A stretch of 64,000 bases of DNA. Source: Curtobacterium flaccumfaciens. Its GTDB lineage: Bacteria; Actinomycetota; Actinomycetes; Actinomycetales; Microbacteriaceae. Positions 2 through 56,202 of the stretch are shown here, one piece after another. Every line of letters starts with the position of its first letter. The stretch's first letter is position 1. The notes beneath the pieces were generated by a model, which saw nothing but the letters and a program-made list of their open reading frames with translations, had not been told where the DNA came from and made no database searches. The stretch lies in assembly GCF_013359815.1 (NCBI RefSeq), contig NZ_JABMCF010000033.1, forward strand, positions 248,001 through 312,000. Direction: 5' to 3'. A program made the position numbers and the translations under genes.

Positions 2-973
2 CTGTTCACCTACTCCGAGACCGCCCCCGTCGAGCAGGGCTACGACGGCGACAGCATGGACGTCGTCTCGACGTTCCTGAAGGTCCGCGACGGGTACTGC
101 GTGCACTTCTCGTCCGCGATGGCCGTGATGGCCCGCACGCTCGGCATCCCCTCGCGCATCGCGGTCGGGTACCGTGCCGGGTCGCCGCAGCCCGACGGCG
201 AGTACGCGGTGTCGAACCGGCAGCTGCACTCCTGGCCGGAGCTGTACATCCAGGGCGCCGGGTGGGTCGCCTTCGAGCCGACGCCCGACTCCGACGAGGC
301 CGCTCCGTCCGAGGAGCCCTCGGCCTCGCCGACCGCGGCGGCACCGGAGACCCCGCTGCCGGCACCCGAGCAGACCACCCCGGCGGACGAGTCAGCGTCA
401 CCGACCCCGTCGGCGTCCCCGGTTCCGGGTGCCACGGGTGCGTCCGGCACCGGCGGCGGCGGAGGACCGGTCGGGCTGCTCGTGGGCCTGCTGCTCGTGC
501 TCGCGGTCCTCGTCGCCCCGGGCCTCGTGCGTGCTGTCCGCCGCCGGTCGAGGCTGTCGGCGATCGCTGCCGGTCGGTCACCCGCCGTGCAGGCGTGGCG
601 CGAGTTGCTCGATGACGTCGCCGACCACGGGTACGCCCCGGGCCTCGCGCCGCCGGGTGACGCCGCCGCCGTGGCCCGGACCGCCCGAGCCGTGCTCGGA
701 CGCCTGCGGCCCGGGTTGCCGGAGTCGGTCGTGCCGCACCTGGAGGCCGCGGTCGACGCGGTCGATCGCGAGCGCTTCGCCGCCGGCGGGGCTGCATCGG
801 TGGACACGGCGGCGTTGGAACGTCACGTCCGCGACGCTCGCGGGGCTCTCGACGCCTCGGTCCCCACGGTGCGCGTCGTCCGGTCGCGCCTGTTGCCGCC
901 GAGCCTGCTGCCGTCGTCCGCCTGGTCCCACGACGGGCCGAAGCCCCGCCGTCGGGATCGTCGCACGGCCTGA
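2..973 (+). CDS. Transglutaminase-like membrane protein (TgpA/DUF3488 type), 3' part only
   Basis: The gene enters from outside the window; 323 residues are visible. It starts inside a transglutaminase core: 'GYCVHFSSAMAVMAR' holds the catalytic Cys (visible residue 33), 'LHSWPELYIQG' the His, and 'WVAFEPTP' leads to the Asp region. A Pro/Ala/Ser/Thr-rich linker (visible residues about 95-150), one membrane helix (about 155-180) and a cytoplasmic DUF4129-like tail follow. Proteins of this family carry several N-terminal membrane helices and an extracytoplasmic transglutaminase domain, often beside a MoxR ATPase and a DUF58 protein; those neighbours would lie upstream. The substrate is unknown. 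The family call is firm, the membrane topology of the missing part is inferred. Confidence 0.85.
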   Translation: MFTYSETAPVEQGYDGDSMDVVSTFLKVRDGYCVHFSSAMAVMARTLGIPSRIAVGYRAGSPQPDGEYAVSNRQLHSWPELYIQGAGWVAFEPTPDSDEAAPSEEPSASPTAAAPETPLPAPEQTTPADESASPTPSASPVPGATGASGTGGGGGPVGLLVGLLLVLAVLVAPGLVRAVRRRSRLSAIAAGRSPAVQAWRELLDDVADHGYAPGLAPPGDAAAVARTARAVLGRLRPGLPESVVPHLEAAVDAVDRERFAAGGAASVDTAALERHVRDARGALDASVPTVRVVRSRLLPPSLLPSSAWSHDGPKPRRRDRRTA

Positions 974-1083: not shown

Positions 1084-1686
1084 TCAGCGCCGGCGGATGA
1101 CCGCCTCGACCAGGGTCGCGATGCGCTCGCCGGGGTCGACTCCGGGCAGCGCCGGCGCGTCGAACACCAGGCCGACGTTCGCCCCGATGAGCACGGTCGC
1201 GAACTCCTCCGGGGTCATGCCGACCTCGACCTCGGGGTGCGCCCCGAGCCACAACCGCACCAGCTCCAGTACCCCGTCCTGCAGGATCCGGCGTTGCCGG
1301 ATGAACTCGGGCAGGAACTCGGGGTGCCGGACGGCGTACCCGCGGAACGCCGAGAGCAGCGCGAACTGCTCGCTCTGGTCGTTCTGCCCGAACGCGGCGC
1401 GCAGGACGTCCCCGACGTCGACGGCGGCGATGTCCGCGTGCACGAGTTCCTGCAGTGAGCTGAGCACGACGTTCGTGGACCGCTGCATGACCTGGGCGAG
1501 CAGGTCTTCCTTCGACGAGAAGTTCGAGTAGACCGCACCCTTGCTGAACCCCGCGCGCGCGGCGACGTCGTCGAGCCGCGCTCCGTACACACCCTGTTCG
1601 GCGAAGACCGCGGCTCCGGCGGCGAGCAGGCGTTCCCGGACCTCGGCCCGCGGGATGCGCTGGGTGGGGGAAGCGTCGTCGCTCAT
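1084..1686 (-). CDS. TetR/AcrR family transcriptional regulator
   Basis: 200 residues, a typical TetR length. The N-terminal helix-turn-helix is clear: 'LLAAGAAVFAEQGVYGARL' followed by 'VAARAGFSKGAVYSNFSSK' and 'EDLLAQVM' at about residues 20-65. The C-terminal ligand-binding half is helical and gives no ligand clue. ATG start at 1686. It is convergent with the transglutaminase gene and separated from the TRIC-type gene by about 250 bp holding an imperfect TetR-like operator (1891-1907). Its target genes are not evident in the window. Confidence 0.9.
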   Translation of the reverse strand: MSDDASPTQRIPRAEVRERLLAAGAAVFAEQGVYGARLDDVAARAGFSKGAVYSNFSSKEDLLAQVMQRSTNVVLSSLQELVHADIAAVDVGDVLRAAFGQNDQSEQFALLSAFRGYAVRHPEFLPEFIRQRRILQDGVLELVRLWLGAHPEVEVGMTPEEFATVLIGANVGLVFDAPALPGVDPGERIATLVEAVIRRR

Positions 1687-42306: not shown

Positions 42307-43136
42307 TGGCGAAGACCCCGCGGCTCCTGCCGACGAACCCCCGGCTCTTCCGCGCCCGTGTCCTCCGGACCCAGCGGGTGACCCCCTCGATGCAGCGCGT
42401 CACCGTCACAGGCGACGACCTGCACGAGTTCGGCTACCTCGGTTTCGACCACTGGTTCCGCCTGTTCGTCCGACGCCCCGACCAGGACACCTTCCGGATG
42501 CCCGACCTGGACGGCAAGAAGTGGTGGCCGACGTTCCTCGGCATCCCCGAGGACATCCGCCCCCACTGCGCGAACTACACCGTCGCCGCCTACCGCCTGC
42601 TCGCCGACGGCACCGCCGAGCTCGACATCGACTTCGTCGTGCACCTGGACCACCGCGGCGAGCTCGAGGGCCGCGCCGCGATCTGGGCCTGCGCCGCACG
42701 CCCCGGCGAGGAGCTCGCGATGCTCGACCAGGGCTGCATCTTCGACGTCCCCGCCGGCACCAGCGAGGTCGTCGTCGCCGCAGAGGAGACCGGCCTGCCC
42801 GGCGTCGTCGGCATCGCCGCGTCGTTGCCGCGCGACACCGTCGGCCGCATCATCCAAGAGGTCCCGACCCCCGCCGACATCCGTGACCTCGACGCCCCCA
42901 CCGGCGTGCAGGTGACGTGGATCGTCCGGCAGCCCGGCGCCGTCCCCGGCAGTGGCGCCCTCGCCGAACTGCAGCGGCACGTGCCGTCCGACGACCAGGG
43001 GTACGCGTTCGTCGTGGGGGAGTCACGACTCGCAACGGAGGGCCGCCGCCACCTGCACCGTGCGGGCCTGCCGAAGTCGCGCATCACGTTCTCCGGCTTC
43101 TGGAAGCACGAGACGAAGGTCTCCATCCCCGCCTGA
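42306..43136 (+). CDS. Siderophore-interacting protein (ViuB/SIP ferric-siderophore reductase)
   Basis: 276 residues. FAD-binding domain first ('TPSMQRVTVTGDDLHEFGY', 'HWFRLFVRRP'), then the NAD(P)H-binding SIP domain with 'GTSEVVVAAEETGLPGVVGI' and the C-terminal family block 'DDQGYAFVVGESRLATEGR' and 'ITFSGFWKHE'. It releases iron from the imported siderophore by reduction in the cytoplasm. It shares an iron box with the divergent importer operon. The repeat array starts directly after it. Confidence 0.94.
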   Translation: MAKTPRLLPTNPRLFRARVLRTQRVTPSMQRVTVTGDDLHEFGYLGFDHWFRLFVRRPDQDTFRMPDLDGKKWWPTFLGIPEDIRPHCANYTVAAYRLLADGTAELDIDFVVHLDHRGELEGRAAIWACAARPGEELAMLDQGCIFDVPAGTSEVVVAAEETGLPGVVGIAASLPRDTVGRIIQEVPTPADIRDLDAPTGVQVTWIVRQPGAVPGSGALAELQRHVPSDDQGYAFVVGESRLATEGRRHLHRAGLPKSRITFSGFWKHETKVSIPA

Positions 43137-43139
43137 CCC

Positions 43140-43738
43140 GCGCTGCCTGGCAGGTATGCCCGTTCTCGCCAGGTACGCCCGATCCTTCCCCTTGCGCGCG
43201 CGATGCCTGGTCCTTTCGGGGGTACCGCCACAGAACTTCCGACCGGGTATGCCCGGTTCCGCCAGGTATGCCCGGTTCGGCCAGGTGCGCCCGGTCCTTC
43301 CTTTGGCGTGCGCGATGCCTGGTGCTTTCGGGCGTACCACCACGGAACTTCCGACCGGGTATGCCCGGTTCCGCCAGGCGCGCCCGTTCCCCCTAGGTAC
43401 GCCCGTTCCCGCCAGGTACGCCCGGTTCTTCCCCTGGCGTGCGCGATGCCTGGTGCTTTCGGGCATACCGCCACAGAACTTCCGACCGAGTACGCCCGGT
43501 TCCGCCAGGTACGCCCGGTTCCGGCAGGTACGCCCGGTTCCCCCTAGCTACGCCCGTTCCGGCCAGGTGCGCCCGGTTCCGCCCGGTGCGCCCGGTTCCG
43601 GTAGGCACGCCCGGTTCCGCCCGCTACGCCCGGTCCTTCCACTGGCGGGCGCGGTGCCTGGTGCTTTCGGGCGTACCGCCACAGAACTTCCGACCGGGTA
43701 CGCCCGGTTCCGCCAGGGACGCCCGAAAGCGCCAGCCG
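43140..43738. repeat. Non-coding tandem/composite repeat array
   Basis: About 600 bp made only of repeats. A 19-nt unit, consensus TACGCCCGGTTCCGCCAGG, occurs roughly 19 times with substitutions. It is interrupted by four copies of a 63-64-nt module at 43184-43247, 43296-43359, 43428-43490 and 43635-43698. The module contains GCGATGCCTGGTGCTTTCGG, then GGCGTACC and GGGTACGCC as a hairpin around GAACTTCCGACC. Groups of 2, 3, 4, 8 and 2 short units lie before, between and after the modules. Because 19 is not a multiple of three, the open frames through it do not encode a stable protein repeat. A diverged copy of the family is at 55776-55865. Confidence 0.92.
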
Positions 43739-43764
43739 CGCCGCGCCCGCGACGGACGGACGGA

Positions 43765-43808
43765 CGGGCGGGAGGCCCGGTGCCAGCTGGCACCGGGCCT
43801 CCCGTCCG
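43765..43808. terminator. Palindromic terminator (GGAGGCCCG family)
   Basis: 22-nt arms 43765-43786 and 43787-43808 with one mismatch and no loop, just after the stop of the leftward permease gene and at the end of the repeat array. Confidence 0.78.
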
Positions 43809-43821
43809 TGGTGGGGTCGCG

Positions 43822-44733
43822 TCAGCCCTTGAGGCCCGAGCCCGTCACGCCCTCCACGATCTGCCGCTGGAAGATCAGGTAGAGGATGATCAGCGGCAGC
43901 GCCGCGAGGATCGCACCGGCCTGGATGTCGGCGTAGCGCTGCCCGAAGCTGCCCTGGACCGTGGCGAGCCCGACCGGGATCGTCATGAGGTCCGGATTGG
44001 ACAGCACGAACAGCGGCAGCAGCAGGTTGTTCCACACCCCGACGAAGGTCAGGATCGTCACGGCCGCGATCACCGGACGCGACAGCGGCAGGATGACCGA
44101 CCAGTAGACCTTCCAGATGCCGGCGCCGTCGATGCGCGCCGCCTCTTCCAGCTCCTTCGGGATGCCGTCGAAGAACTGCTTGAAGATGAACACCGCGATC
44201 ACGGCGGGCACCTGCGGGAAGATCACCGACCAGTAGGTGTTGAGCAGGCCGACCGCGTTGAGCTCCTGGAAGATCGGGATGATCAGCACCTGGGTGGGGA
44301 TCATGATCCCGAGGATGATGAGCAGGAACGCGATGTTGCGGCCGCGGAACACCAGCCGCGACAGCGCGAACGCCGCCATCGACGCGAACAGCACGGTGAG
44401 TGCCGCCGTGACGACGCTCGTGATGGCGCTGGCGAGGTACCAGTTCCAGATGTCGCCGGCCTGGAACAGCGACGAGTACGAGTGCAGCGTCGGGTTCCAG
44501 TTCGACAGGATCGCGTTCGCGCCGAGTGCGGCGACGCCGTTGTCGGACAGCGACGTCTTCAGGGCGAACACGCTCGGGATGAGCCAGATGATCGCGAAGA
44601 TCGTCAGGACGATCCCCGACGCGATCGTGAAGCCGCGACCGCTGACGCCGATCTTCGCGGCGCTCGTCGGAGCGGCGGACGAGACGCCGGTGCGGAGCTT
44701 GCGGCCGGTGGTGATGCTCTCGGTGGCGGTCAT
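43822..44733 (-). CDS. Carbohydrate ABC transporter permease (MalG type)
   Basis: 303 residues, six helices after a 25-residue head. The ATPase-coupling EAA loop is 'EAARIDGAGIWKVYWSVIL' near residue 195. Third gene of the importer (binding protein, permease, permease); starts one base after the stop of the preceding gene. There is no ATPase gene in the cluster, so a shared MsmK-like ATPase elsewhere is expected. Confidence 0.92.
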   Translation of the reverse strand: MTATESITTGRKLRTGVSSAAPTSAAKIGVSGRGFTIASGIVLTIFAIIWLIPSVFALKTSLSDNGVAALGANAILSNWNPTLHSYSSLFQAGDIWNWYLASAITSVVTAALTVLFASMAAFALSRLVFRGRNIAFLLIILGIMIPTQVLIIPIFQELNAVGLLNTYWSVIFPQVPAVIAVFIFKQFFDGIPKELEEAARIDGAGIWKVYWSVILPLSRPVIAAVTILTFVGVWNNLLLPLFVLSNPDLMTIPVGLATVQGSFGQRYADIQAGAILAALPLIILYLIFQRQIVEGVTGSGLKG

Positions 44734-53932: not shown

Positions 53933-55762
53933 ATGCGCTTCGCCATCGGCGACACCGACTTCCTGCTCGACGGCGAGCCGCACCGGGTCCTGTCCGGCGC
54001 GATCCACTACTTCCGCGTCCACCCCGACCTGTGGGCCGACCGGATCCGCAAGGCGAAGCTGATGGGCCTCAACACCATCGAGACCTACGTCGCCTGGAAT
54101 GCGCACGCGCCGTCGCCCGGGGTGTTCGACCTGTCGGGTGGCCTGGACCTCGGCCGCTTCCTCGACCTCGTCGCCGCCGAGGGCATGCACGCCATCGTCC
54201 GCCCCGGCCCCTACATCTGTGCCGAGTGGACGAACGGCGGCCTGCCGTACTGGTTGTTCGCCGACGGTTCCGTGGGTGTCCGGCGCAACGAGCCCGGGTT
54301 CCTCGCAGCGGTCGAGACGTACCTGCAGCACCTGGCCCCCGTGCTGGTCCCGCGGCAGATCGACCAGGGCGGGCCCATCGTCCTGGTGCAGGTCGAGAAC
54401 GAGTACGGCGCCTACGGGTCCGACCCCGAATACCTGCGCGCACTCGAGCAGATGCACCGCGACATCGGGCTGACCGTCCCCTTCACGAGCGTCGACCAGC
54501 CGATGGGCACGATGCTCGAGGACGGCTCCCTGCCCTCGCTGCACAAGACCGGTTCGTTCGGCTCACGCTCCGCCGCCCGCCTCGAGCGCCTGCGGCAGGC
54601 ACAGCCCACCGGGCCCCTGATGTGCTCGGAGTTCTGGGACGGCTGGTTCGACAGCTGGGGCGAGCACCACCACACCACGCCGGCGTCCGCCAGCGCCGAG
54701 GACCTGGACGTCCTGCTCGCCGCCGGCGGCTCGGTGAACATCTACATGTTCCACGGCGGCACGAACTTCGGCTTCACCAACGGCGCGAACGACAAGGGTG
54801 TCTACCGTCCGATCGCGACGTCGTACGACTACGACGCCCCGCTCGACGAGGCCGGTCGGCCGACCGAGAAGTTCCACGCCTTCCGCGCGGTGATCGCGCG
54901 CTACGCGCCCGTCCCGCCGCTGCCCGCGACGATGGAGCCGGGTGGATCGGGTCGCCTCGGTCCCGTGGCCGCGTCCGGCGACGGCCTGGAGGCCCGGATC
55001 ACCCCCGCCACGGACCTCGCCGTCCGGCTGGACCGCGTCGCGTCGCTCCGTTCCCTGCTGCCCACGCTCACGACGTGGTCCGCGCACGACGAGCCGCCGA
55101 CCTTCGACGCCCTCGGAGCCGCGAGCGGCTTCGTCGCCTACCGTGCCGAGGTCGACCTGCCCACCGGAGGGGTGCTGACCGTCGGCACCGAGGTGCGCGA
55201 CCGAGCGATCGTGTCGGCCGACGGTGTCGTCGTCGGGGTCCTGGAGCGTGAGCACCACGACCGCGCCATCACCCTGCCGCCGGTGACCGGCACGCTCGAG
55301 CTCCTCGTCGAGGACCAGGGGCGCGTCGACTACGGCGTCCGCATCGGTGAGCCGAAGGGCCTGATCGGGGGCGTCTCGATCGACGGCGTCCCGGTTGCCC
55401 GGTGGACGGCGTCGCCGCTCGCCCTCGACCCCATCGCACCGGCCGCCGTGACCGCGCTGTCCGAGGTCGCTCCGACCGGCGGCGACGTGCTCGCCGGGCC
55501 GACGTTCGCAGCTGGCTCGTTCGACCTCGACACCGTGGACGACCGGTACCTGTCGCTCGACGGGTTCCGGAAGGGTGTCGCCTGGGTCAACGGGTTCTGC
55601 CTCGGTCGGTACTGGTCGCGAGGCCCGCAGCAGACCCTGGCGATCCCGGGGCCGGTGCTCCGCCACGGTCGCAACGAGCTCGTCGTGCTCGAGCTGCACG
55701 CCGCCGCGTCCCGCACCGCGTGCCTGCTCGTCGAGCCCGACCTGGGTCACACCGAGGCCTAG
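53933..55762 (+). CDS. Beta-galactosidase, GH35
   Basis: 609 residues from ATG 53933. No signal peptide, hence cytoplasmic. The catalytic barrel begins 'LSGAIHYFRVHPDLWADRI'; the acid/base Glu is in 'PYICAEWTNGGLPYWL' (about residue 97), 'VQVENEYGAYG' follows, and the nucleophile Glu is in 'MCSEFWDGWFDSWG' (about 233). C-terminal beta domains carry 'GVAWVNGFCLGRYWSRGPQ' as in the family. Hydrolyses terminal beta-galactosyl residues of imported oligosaccharides; with the neighbouring GH51 this suggests plant arabinogalactan side chains as diet. Confidence 0.95.
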   Translation: MRFAIGDTDFLLDGEPHRVLSGAIHYFRVHPDLWADRIRKAKLMGLNTIETYVAWNAHAPSPGVFDLSGGLDLGRFLDLVAAEGMHAIVRPGPYICAEWTNGGLPYWLFADGSVGVRRNEPGFLAAVETYLQHLAPVLVPRQIDQGGPIVLVQVENEYGAYGSDPEYLRALEQMHRDIGLTVPFTSVDQPMGTMLEDGSLPSLHKTGSFGSRSAARLERLRQAQPTGPLMCSEFWDGWFDSWGEHHHTTPASASAEDLDVLLAAGGSVNIYMFHGGTNFGFTNGANDKGVYRPIATSYDYDAPLDEAGRPTEKFHAFRAVIARYAPVPPLPATMEPGGSGRLGPVAASGDGLEARITPATDLAVRLDRVASLRSLLPTLTTWSAHDEPPTFDALGAASGFVAYRAEVDLPTGGVLTVGTEVRDRAIVSADGVVVGVLEREHHDRAITLPPVTGTLELLVEDQGRVDYGVRIGEPKGLIGGVSIDGVPVARWTASPLALDPIAPAAVTALSEVAPTGGDVLAGPTFAAGSFDLDTVDDRYLSLDGFRKGVAWVNGFCLGRYWSRGPQQTLAIPGPVLRHGRNELVVLELHAAASRTACLLVEPDLGHTEA

Positions 55763-55775
55763 TCGGGCGCGCGGC

Positions 55776-55865
55776 CTGGTCGAATCGGGCGTACCTGGTC
55801 GAATCGGGCGTCCCTGGTCGAATCGGGCGTACCCGGTCGGAAGTTTCGACCAGGTACGCCCGATT
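55776..55865. repeat. Three 19-nt repeats plus long hairpin, relative of the 43.1-43.7 kb array
   Basis: Units at 55776-55794, 55795-55813 and 55814-55832, consensus CTGGTCGAATCGGGCGTAC, whose complement differs from the array unit at three of 19 positions. A hairpin follows with arms 55821-55839 and 55847-55865 (19 nt, one mismatch) around GAAGTTT. The complement strand reads ACTTCCGACCGGGTACGCCC, exactly as in the large array. Lies between convergent genes, so it may also terminate both. Confidence 0.85.
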
Positions 55866-55896
55866 CTGCTTTCCATCGCGGGCGTCATGGGAAGGA

Positions 55897-56202
55897 TCAG
55901 TCGTGGTCGAGGGCGTCCAGGTCGGCGAGGGCCTGCTCGGCATCGGCGATCCGGTCGGCCTCGGGGCGGGTCCACCACTCGGGGCCGCGTTCGCCCAGGC
56001 CGTGCTTGGCCAGGCCGTTCCGGTGCCGGACCGCCGCCAGGGCCTCCTCGTCGCCCGCGCGCTTCGCGGTCTTCACGGCGTTGCGCCCGCGTCCCAGGTG
56101 GGAGCGGAGTGCGGCGGCGAGTTCTTCGGGCAGGGCGGGGTCGGTGCGGCGCCAGCGTCGGCCGTCCACGACGAAGAAGTGGTCGTCGGGTTCGGCGGTC
56201 AT
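55897..56202 (-). CDS. Small soluble protein of unknown function
   Basis: 101 residues from ATG 56202. 'DHFFVVDGRRWRRTDPALPE' opens it, followed by a helical, basic middle ('NAVKTAKRAGDEEALAAVRH') and an acidic end. The pattern (xGRRWRxTDP..P, 'GLGERGPEWW') is one I have seen in uncharacterised bacterial proteins but I cannot give a family name. Divergent from the radical SAM gene with 44 bp between starts. Confidence 0.7.
   Translation of the reverse strand: MTAEPDDHFFVVDGRRWRRTDPALPEELAAALRSHLGRGRNAVKTAKRAGDEEALAAVRHRNGLAKHGLGERGPEWWTRPEADRIADAEQALADLDALDHD

Follow-up and report, generated by a model that had tools for sequence, protein, structure and literature searches.

REPIN/RAYT systems are the known example of dispersed palindromes linked to an enzyme, which in their case is HUH-based. 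The palindromes are extragenic and occur as inverted doublets or pairs, and a single-copy chromosomal gene bears the same repeat in its flank (PMC3116915). A GTAG or CGTC tag marks one end of the palindrome (PMC3733652). BOX elements of Streptococcus pneumoniae are modular intergenic repeats with variable middle units and predicted stem-loops, and similarity to ISSpn2 terminal repeats, not a nuclease gene, has been proposed as the basis of their mobilization (PMC3049150). STAR elements of Staphylococcus aureus are direct repeats interspersed between genes, at loci that grow and shrink, and neither an inverted-unit palindrome nor a linked gene is mentioned for them in the abstract of PMC3532100. 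Among proteins, AbiEi antitoxin and Rv2827c bind inverted repeats 5′ of their own genes (PMC7319586).

The repeat family described here, from the genus Curtobacterium, resembles REPIN/RAYT in its dispersed extragenic palindromes, in their inverted pairing and in having a chromosomal gene, present once per genome, that is flanked by a copy of the repeat. It differs in carrying a boxA and tandem arrays of a 19-nt unit, and in the linked protein, which looks AbiEi-like and Vsr-like and is not an HUH Y1 transposase. The Y1_Tnp domain (Pfam PF01797) has no match in the genome under study (G000), while 5 of 14 control genomes are positive, and domain and fold searches found no Y1 (HUH) domain in the linked gene. 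A RAYT was therefore rejected as the mobilizer, and the family is not filed under REPIN/RAYT because this enzyme test failed. The best reading is a REPIN/RAYT-like way of working in which an unrelated enzyme, a protein of different make-up, appears to take the same part.

With BOX, the family shares a modular intergenic build and predicted stem-loops, whereas host and plan are different; measured against the boxA-boxB(n)-boxC plan, modules and changes in unit number are seen, and no conserved right end is visible by eye. The direct repeats that expand and contract recall STAR, to which the inverted-unit palindrome and the linked gene would be additions. The predicted N-terminal fold of the linked protein is that of AbiEi and Rv2827c, yet here it is fused to a nuclease-like half and its presumed sites are also dispersed over the genome. 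The C-terminal half matches, in a predicted model, the catalytic domains of both Vsr and I-Bth0305I; the difference is that this putative nuclease is encoded outside any intron or intein and is tied to dispersed intergenic repeats. No description of the repeat, or of any such nuclease-linked repeat, was found in the literature searched, a scope that most subscription journals fall outside. Nuclease-linked repeat spread of this kind would add an as yet undescribed route by which DNA can spread inside a bacterial genome.

A compound repeat array

The window, the whole 64,000-nt stretch of Curtobacterium flaccumfaciens DNA that was analyzed, carries the largest family copy observed, at positions 43144-43736 of the forward strand. 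The array begins just 3′ of a siderophore-interacting gene that stops at 43136 and is named from its Pfam SIP and FAD_binding_9 matches; a converging gene (43822-44733) lies on the far side. A sequence-only reading of this DNA had described 19-nt units and four longer modules directly after the siderophore-interacting gene, with units in groups of 2, 3, 4, 8 and 2. The array was confirmed, as was the grouping, by eye from unit positions. The unit is TAYGCCCGNTTCNNCCAGG. With up to 3 mismatches allowed, the window contains 24 matches to its pattern; 100 shuffles average 1.26, and none of them reaches 24. The longest direct run has 8 units and spans 43491-43643 (+).

The four modules also stand, but not as something separate from the units. 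Each has boxA (GTTCYTTCCCA plus a GC-rich stretch) followed by the unit in inverted orientation (CCTGGTGCTTTCGGGCGTACC) and by a 9-nt loop, which leads into the direct unit that opens the next direct-unit run. All lie on the forward strand. Module 1 (43179-43255) has a boxA-like head followed by a palindrome of inverted unit, loop and direct unit at 43217-43255; modules 2 (43291-43367), 3 (43422-43498) and 4 (43630-43706) have their palindromes at 43329-43367, 43460-43498 and 43668-43706. A second family copy lies on the reverse strand of the window at 55775-55900 and comprises boxA, palindrome and three direct units. It sits between the converging 3′ ends of a gene with a Pfam beta-galactosidase match (53933-55762, +) and a gene at 55897-56202 (-).

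The same array, with four palindromes and a span 74 nt shorter, occurs at the same place in G007, a genome labelled as the same species, so an assembly artefact is unlikely, as had been supposed from divergence between copies. At the gathering score, the only match of Rfam models in the window is a tRNA, and no known RNA family was found for the repeat. Separately from the array, a near-perfect long hairpin, ACGGACGGGAGGCCCGGTGCCAG/CTGGCACCGGGCCTCCCGTCCGT and variants, recurs 3′ of genes, at 43764-43809 in the window and in most of the ffh gaps read; it is probably a terminator.

The family within the genome and across the genus

The genome (3.83 Mb, 41 contigs) holds 52 palindromes of the family at 32 loci. 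At up to 1 mismatch the unit matches 68 times (35 forward, 33 reverse) and at up to 3 mismatches the loop-and-arm pattern matches 63 times; the reversed-pattern control for the unit and the control for the loop-and-arm pattern both give 0. The common plan is rigid: boxA, an inverted 19-nt unit, the 9-nt loop, then up to 8 direct units, and 39 boxA-bearing copies align gap-free over 105 nt. A set of loci, most of them brought in by the repeat itself, gave 174 boxA-like matches taken with no pairing rule. In 157 of these, 11-15 of the 15 arm pairs are complementary at an offset of exactly +36; at five other offsets from boxA the number is never above 10.

The loci follow genes, as called by a codon-usage caller made for this analysis. 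They lie in 16 convergent, 15 tandem and 0 divergent gaps, with 1 at a contig edge, whereas other gaps of at least 100 bp in the same stretches are convergent in 12, tandem in 31 and divergent in 24 cases (divergent, 0/31 versus 24/67; Fisher p 2.7e-5). The direction of the repeat relative to transcription appears mixed. In plasmids and phages, the composite repeat consensus has no match.

All 32 loci of G000 have a counterpart in G007, so no new G000 insertion is visible at the strain level; one G007 locus (L258) has no match among the G000 loci compared. The array had been taken to be old, and the loci do seem so from these counterparts, though the sequences stay similar. In 28 simple locus pairs the span differs in 21, 9 of them by exactly 19 or 38 nt. 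Arrays gain and lose units between strains, which is the kind of copy-number variation that the first reading had proposed to look at. The G007 copies run from 0.13 to 3.53 Mb of a 3.70-Mb contig, by inspection the whole length of the chromosome, and a position signal for replication or partition was rejected on this ground.

Two cores occur on an identical plan, A (GGTACGCCCG) and B (CCTACGCGCG). The A-core covariance model (R1) finds the family in 49 of 66 Curtobacterium genomes and the B-core model matches 50; 16 match neither, and G051 has only two weak B matches. Four R1-negative genomes (G046, G056, G064 and G051) rescored with 150 candidates at E up to 0.1 still gave zero matches to the A model. 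An exact scan returned 12 stretches, every one named Curtobacterium. In a draw of 398 Microbacteriaceae genomes from a larger group, with 9 candidates scored in each, 9 matched and 8 of these were Curtobacterium. The ninth, G421 from another genus, is a doubtful member; its palindrome is different and no boxA is seen there by eye. That palindrome, GGGCATTCCGGGCC/GGCCCGGAATGCCC, recurs at three places 3′ of genes (L211-L213). The wider search for copies, which the first reading had called for, thus shows that the array is not unique, with one more copy in the window and others throughout the genome.

Two shared sites illustrate change between species. Gene names here (ffh, pfkA) rest on Pfam, as do those of the siderophore-interacting, mannosidase and NAD(P)H-hydrate dehydratase genes. 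The repeat lies 3′ of ffh and of pfkA in some species and is replaced by a short clean gap in others, in comparisons limited to the 46 of 65 genomes with the same next gene at ffh and to 30 of 66 genomes read at pfkA, where 20 further genomes entered the tree only. The sister species G041 and G047 have the repeat at both sites and G046 at neither. At ffh, in most genomes read, the repeat lies beyond a separate terminator-like hairpin, which stays when the repeat is absent. No clear target duplication is visible by eye at ffh and pfkA; a possible one at ffh was inconsistent across species and is not claimed. In the almost repeat-free G051, the ffh site (L162) shows by eye two diverged copies of another inverted repeat around GTCGTACGAC.

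The left junction at ffh, GTCGCGAC|GTTC, is identical in genomes with the A core (G003, G014, G041) and in genomes with the B core (G009, G019, G063), and differs by one base in G000. Since the junction is common to both, a single old insertion that later had its core altered in situ is the simplest reading; separate insertions into one preferred site would also give a shared junction.

The structured RNA suggested by the first reading is weakly supported at most. Across genomes the arms do change together: in 26 B-type copies, 12 of 19 stem pairs changed on both sides, and for the whole tested structure of 29 pairs 0 of 500 shuffles reach the covariation score. These copies (26 aligned of 28 listed rows) were chosen for having 11 or more of 15 arm pairs, so the pairing percentage of this alignment is inflated, and the covariation controls share the set. 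Among A copies within G000, stem covariation is not clearly above shuffles (60 of 500), RNAalifold predicts 7 pairs of which none has double changes, and an RNA-structure reading within this genome was rejected accordingly. In several species the other core is found throughout the element, in the inverted unit as well as in the direct and tandem units. Because the direct tandem units change too, the joint change of the arms fits a DNA site better than an RNA.

A chromosomal gene linked to the repeats

The linked gene lies outside the window, at C31:231136-232092 of G000. A genus-wide search with its 319-aa protein found a gene encoding an at least 60% identical protein in 41 of 49 R1-positive genomes, one per genome, and in 0 of 17 R1-negative genomes (Fisher 4.3e-10). 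The best matches in the negatives are paralogs, the top one at E 3.0e-67 and 45% identity (G023). On a 65-genome tree the gene is present in 40 of 48 repeat-positive and 0 of 17 negative genomes. When 6 independent pairs are formed 200 times over, gene and repeats agree in 4.6 of the pairs, disagree in 0.0, and the gene does not differ in 1.4; the median p of the phylogenetic-pair sign test is 0.0625, above 0.05. There are only 6-7 independent contrasts because the 17 negatives include one clade of 8 plus basal lineages. The direction of the association is clear and the independent events are few.

At least two neighbour genes from G000 flank the linked gene in 41 of 41 genomes, namely among those for alpha-mannosidase, histidine phosphatase, NAD(P)H-hydrate dehydratase and OmdA. 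No AbiEii nucleotidyltransferase toxin partner was found among these neighbours. In 30 of 37 full-length genes a repeat in opposite orientation lies 92-95 bp 5′ of the start (~94 bp), and three more have the palindrome at 116-130 bp; G005 and G059 have, by eye, a diverged copy 5′ of the gene. With all kinds pooled, 35 of 37 full-length genes have a repeat 5′, and the remaining two genes (G013 and G010) lie so near a contig edge that no more than 175 bp separate it from their start. Close copies on both sides, with boxA facing the gene from each side, occur in G028, G017 and G021. Set against the terminal inverted repeats and target duplication that mark a MITE, the observations are these paired inward copies and, at ffh and pfkA, no clear duplication by eye.

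Three genomes with few repeats (G028 with 4 places, G060 with 3, and G027) keep copies beside this one gene, 3′ of the alpha-mannosidase gene, and a fourth, G012, is without the linked gene and has its copies elsewhere. Eight R1-positive genomes are without the gene (G012, G014, G029, G041, G052, G054, G055, G058), some with about 50 matches, an approximate count given that at most 60 candidates per genome were scored in searches of more than 40 genomes and both palindrome strands were counted. The gene is therefore not needed for short-term persistence of the repeats. Remnants are seen as two pieces in G055 and, by eye, a short one in G014, while G041 has the repeat alone. Two of the 41 genes, those of G060 (L404) and G039 (L403), match in two separate pieces, perhaps through a recent break.

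Predicted make-up of the linked protein

Pfam and NCBIfam give no match for the linked protein up to E 0.01, DUF559 appears weakly in 14 of 37 sequences (best E 0.024), and for two proteins the PADLOC AbiEi models score E 1.5e-12 and 1.4e-15. A search of solved structures with the protein alignment returned nothing up to E 1. An AlphaFold2 model built from 37 sequences has a pLDDT of 83.7 and a pTM of 0.82. In the VIA comparison of this predicted model, residues 195-305 match the I-Bth0305I catalytic domain in the PDB (Z 10.5, rmsd 2.5, 94 aligned), as well as 3hrl (Z 9.8) and Vsr (Z 9.6). For residues 5-190 the matches are to AbiEi antitoxin, at Z 9.5 with 160 residues aligned and rmsd 5.8, and to Rv2827c (Z 6.6). 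All these values are to be read with a best Z of 7-8 attainable by chance in VIA and with families absent from its list possibly fitting too. Foldseek alone had no match against the PDB at E ≤ 0.001. Four acidic residues of the catalytic kind, E198, D229, E240 and D242, are invariant in 37 of 37 sequences. Taken together, the protein appears to join an AbiEi-type DNA-binding half to a domain resembling Vsr and homing endonucleases.

Protein class and repeat core

The core of the repeats and the class of the linked protein covary, a few genomes being mixed. Class A proteins are at least 70% identical to that of G000 and adjoin an A core; class B proteins are 60-67% identical and adjoin a B core. 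A neighbouring copy was detected for 33 genes; all 17 of these that encode Asp19 have C at core base 13, and all 16 that encode Ser, Thr or Val19 have G. Core base 13 divides without exception along residues 19-20 (D-A/P versus S/T/V-G), and core base 7 along residue 18. G057 is intermediate, its protein and its core each combining an A-like with a B-like feature. Many columns besides 19-20 separate the classes perfectly, so that this covariation alone cannot locate contacts.

The match extends to copies away from the gene. Outside the stretches of the nuclease locus, class A genomes (n=21) have 90 A and 4 B copies, and class B genomes (n=16) have 9 A, 28 B and 1 undecided (Fisher 1.1e-16 by copy, the undecided one dropped, and 2.1e-7 by genome), in a table that over-samples strong copies, its loci being drawn by the best matches of two models plus two genes, and that can count copies 2-3 kb from the linked gene as elsewhere. 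Mixed cores occur in class A G008 and G017, in their class B sisters G033 and G019, and in G063; each of these two sister pairs, G008 with G033 and G017 with G019, is split in gene class. In G038, which lies in an A clade, the gene is of class B but the copies elsewhere are all A.

Proposed mechanism and alternatives

The array is probably a compound member of a non-autonomous repeat family, dependent on a nuclease-like gene located elsewhere on the chromosome. On the best reading, the AbiEi-Vsr-like nuclease keeps the repeats uniform and probably spreads them, and from the comparisons above we infer binding, cutting and copying. The AbiEi-like winged-helix N-terminal half would bind the palindrome and units, the copy 5′ of the linked gene would be its operator, as for AbiEi proteins, and the dispersed copies would be that operator site multiplied. 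The Vsr/homing-endonuclease-like C-terminal half may nick or cut at or near bound repeats, and repair from other copies would homogenize the family and expand and shrink the arrays. Rarely, repair may carry a copy to a new site, by break-repair copying or a transposition-like reaction. Replacement of the gene allele would bring a new specificity that drags the dispersed copies to a new core, and after loss of the gene the copies would no longer be renewed and would eventually be deleted. Repair of breaks or nicks provoked by a nuclease would account for the growth of arrays, for their uniformity inside one genome, for cores that change in place after an allele swap, and for the disappearance of repeats once the gene is gone. 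Of the possibilities raised by the sequence-only reading, a self-spreading repeat family is the one supported, by the dispersed copies, their presence and absence at shared sites, their change in length and the linked nuclease-like gene. Protein binding survives in a new form, with the AbiEi-like half as candidate binder in place of a partition protein.

The repeats could also be ordinary MITE- or REP-like elements moved by some other enzyme, with the nuclease-like gene a passenger that has a copy in its flank by chance. Bacteria commonly carry non-autonomous repeats that form strong palindromes (PMC3049150), and 8 of 49 repeat-positive genomes are without the gene. However, the gene is missing from 17 of 17 negatives, its class matches the core, the low-copy G028, G060 and G027 retain their copies beside it, several paralogs have palindromes of their own, and the genome contains no Y1 transposase. 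These observations make a passenger gene unlikely. It is similarly improbable that the protein is only a DNA-binding regulator, with the repeats as its sites for gene control or chromosome organization and the nuclease-like half inert or otherwise used. Such a regulon would agree with the AbiEi habit of binding inverted repeats 5′ of the own gene (PMC7319586), here matched by a copy at a fixed distance, and with sites distributed along the G007 chromosome; but none of the 31 placed loci falls in a divergent gap, the expected place for promoters, the sites come and go between species, neither model finds any in 16 Curtobacterium genomes, and the four acidic residues, of a kind used in catalysis, are invariant in 37 sequences. 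Transcription terminators or 3′ RNA stabilizers kept for expression are very unlikely, although the repeats lie 3′ of genes and half of them between converging ones, since the separate terminator-like hairpin at ffh persists without the repeat in most genomes read, no T-run is seen by eye, the stem pairs do not clearly covary within G000, and the same genes in sister species do without the repeat.

The genus amounts to a natural experiment. It offers genomes with gene and repeats, genomes where the gene is freshly broken and the repeats are left, genomes with neither, and genomes where the allele was swapped and the repeats are half converted. Two questions become directly testable through it: what keeps small non-coding repeats uniform genome-wide, and whether intergenic DNA can be driven by a nuclease of the homing type.

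Paralogs and other palindrome families

Related AbiEi-Vsr-like genes number up to about six per genome at E ≤ 1e-30, and 64 of 66 genomes of the genus hold them at this threshold, orthologs counted in. Ten paralog loci, 37-43% identical over the match, were read. Related palindromes flank the gene on both sides at L407, L410 and L411, each family unlike the others; by eye the same holds for L413 and, more weakly, L414. A strong palindrome lies on one side at L406, L408 and L412, L409 has just a 9-bp one, and the flanks of L405 have none. Shuffled-palindrome controls gave 0-9 hits at loose thresholds, so that only low-mismatch copies of these families count, and the L408 palindrome has no excess of copies over controls.

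We tentatively raise the possibility, short of an even chance, that chromosomal AbiEi-Vsr-like nucleases form a general class, each with private operator-derived palindromes spread by nuclease-triggered break repair, a homing-like drive on intergenic sites. This would suggest a role for the related genes found in 64 of 66 genomes, and it would mean that swapping a nuclease allele rewrites a repeat core genome-wide. Low-mismatch copies distant from their genes are L079:800, with 4 of 36 arm mismatches, and, in 400 kb of G051, L451:51 (4 of 32) and L445:3291 (5 of 32). The window itself contains a palindrome of such another family, at 1001-1057 between the converging genes 2-973 (+) and 1084-1686 (-). 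Its arms differ at 2 of 36 positions from the palindrome beside the L406 paralog gene of the same genome.
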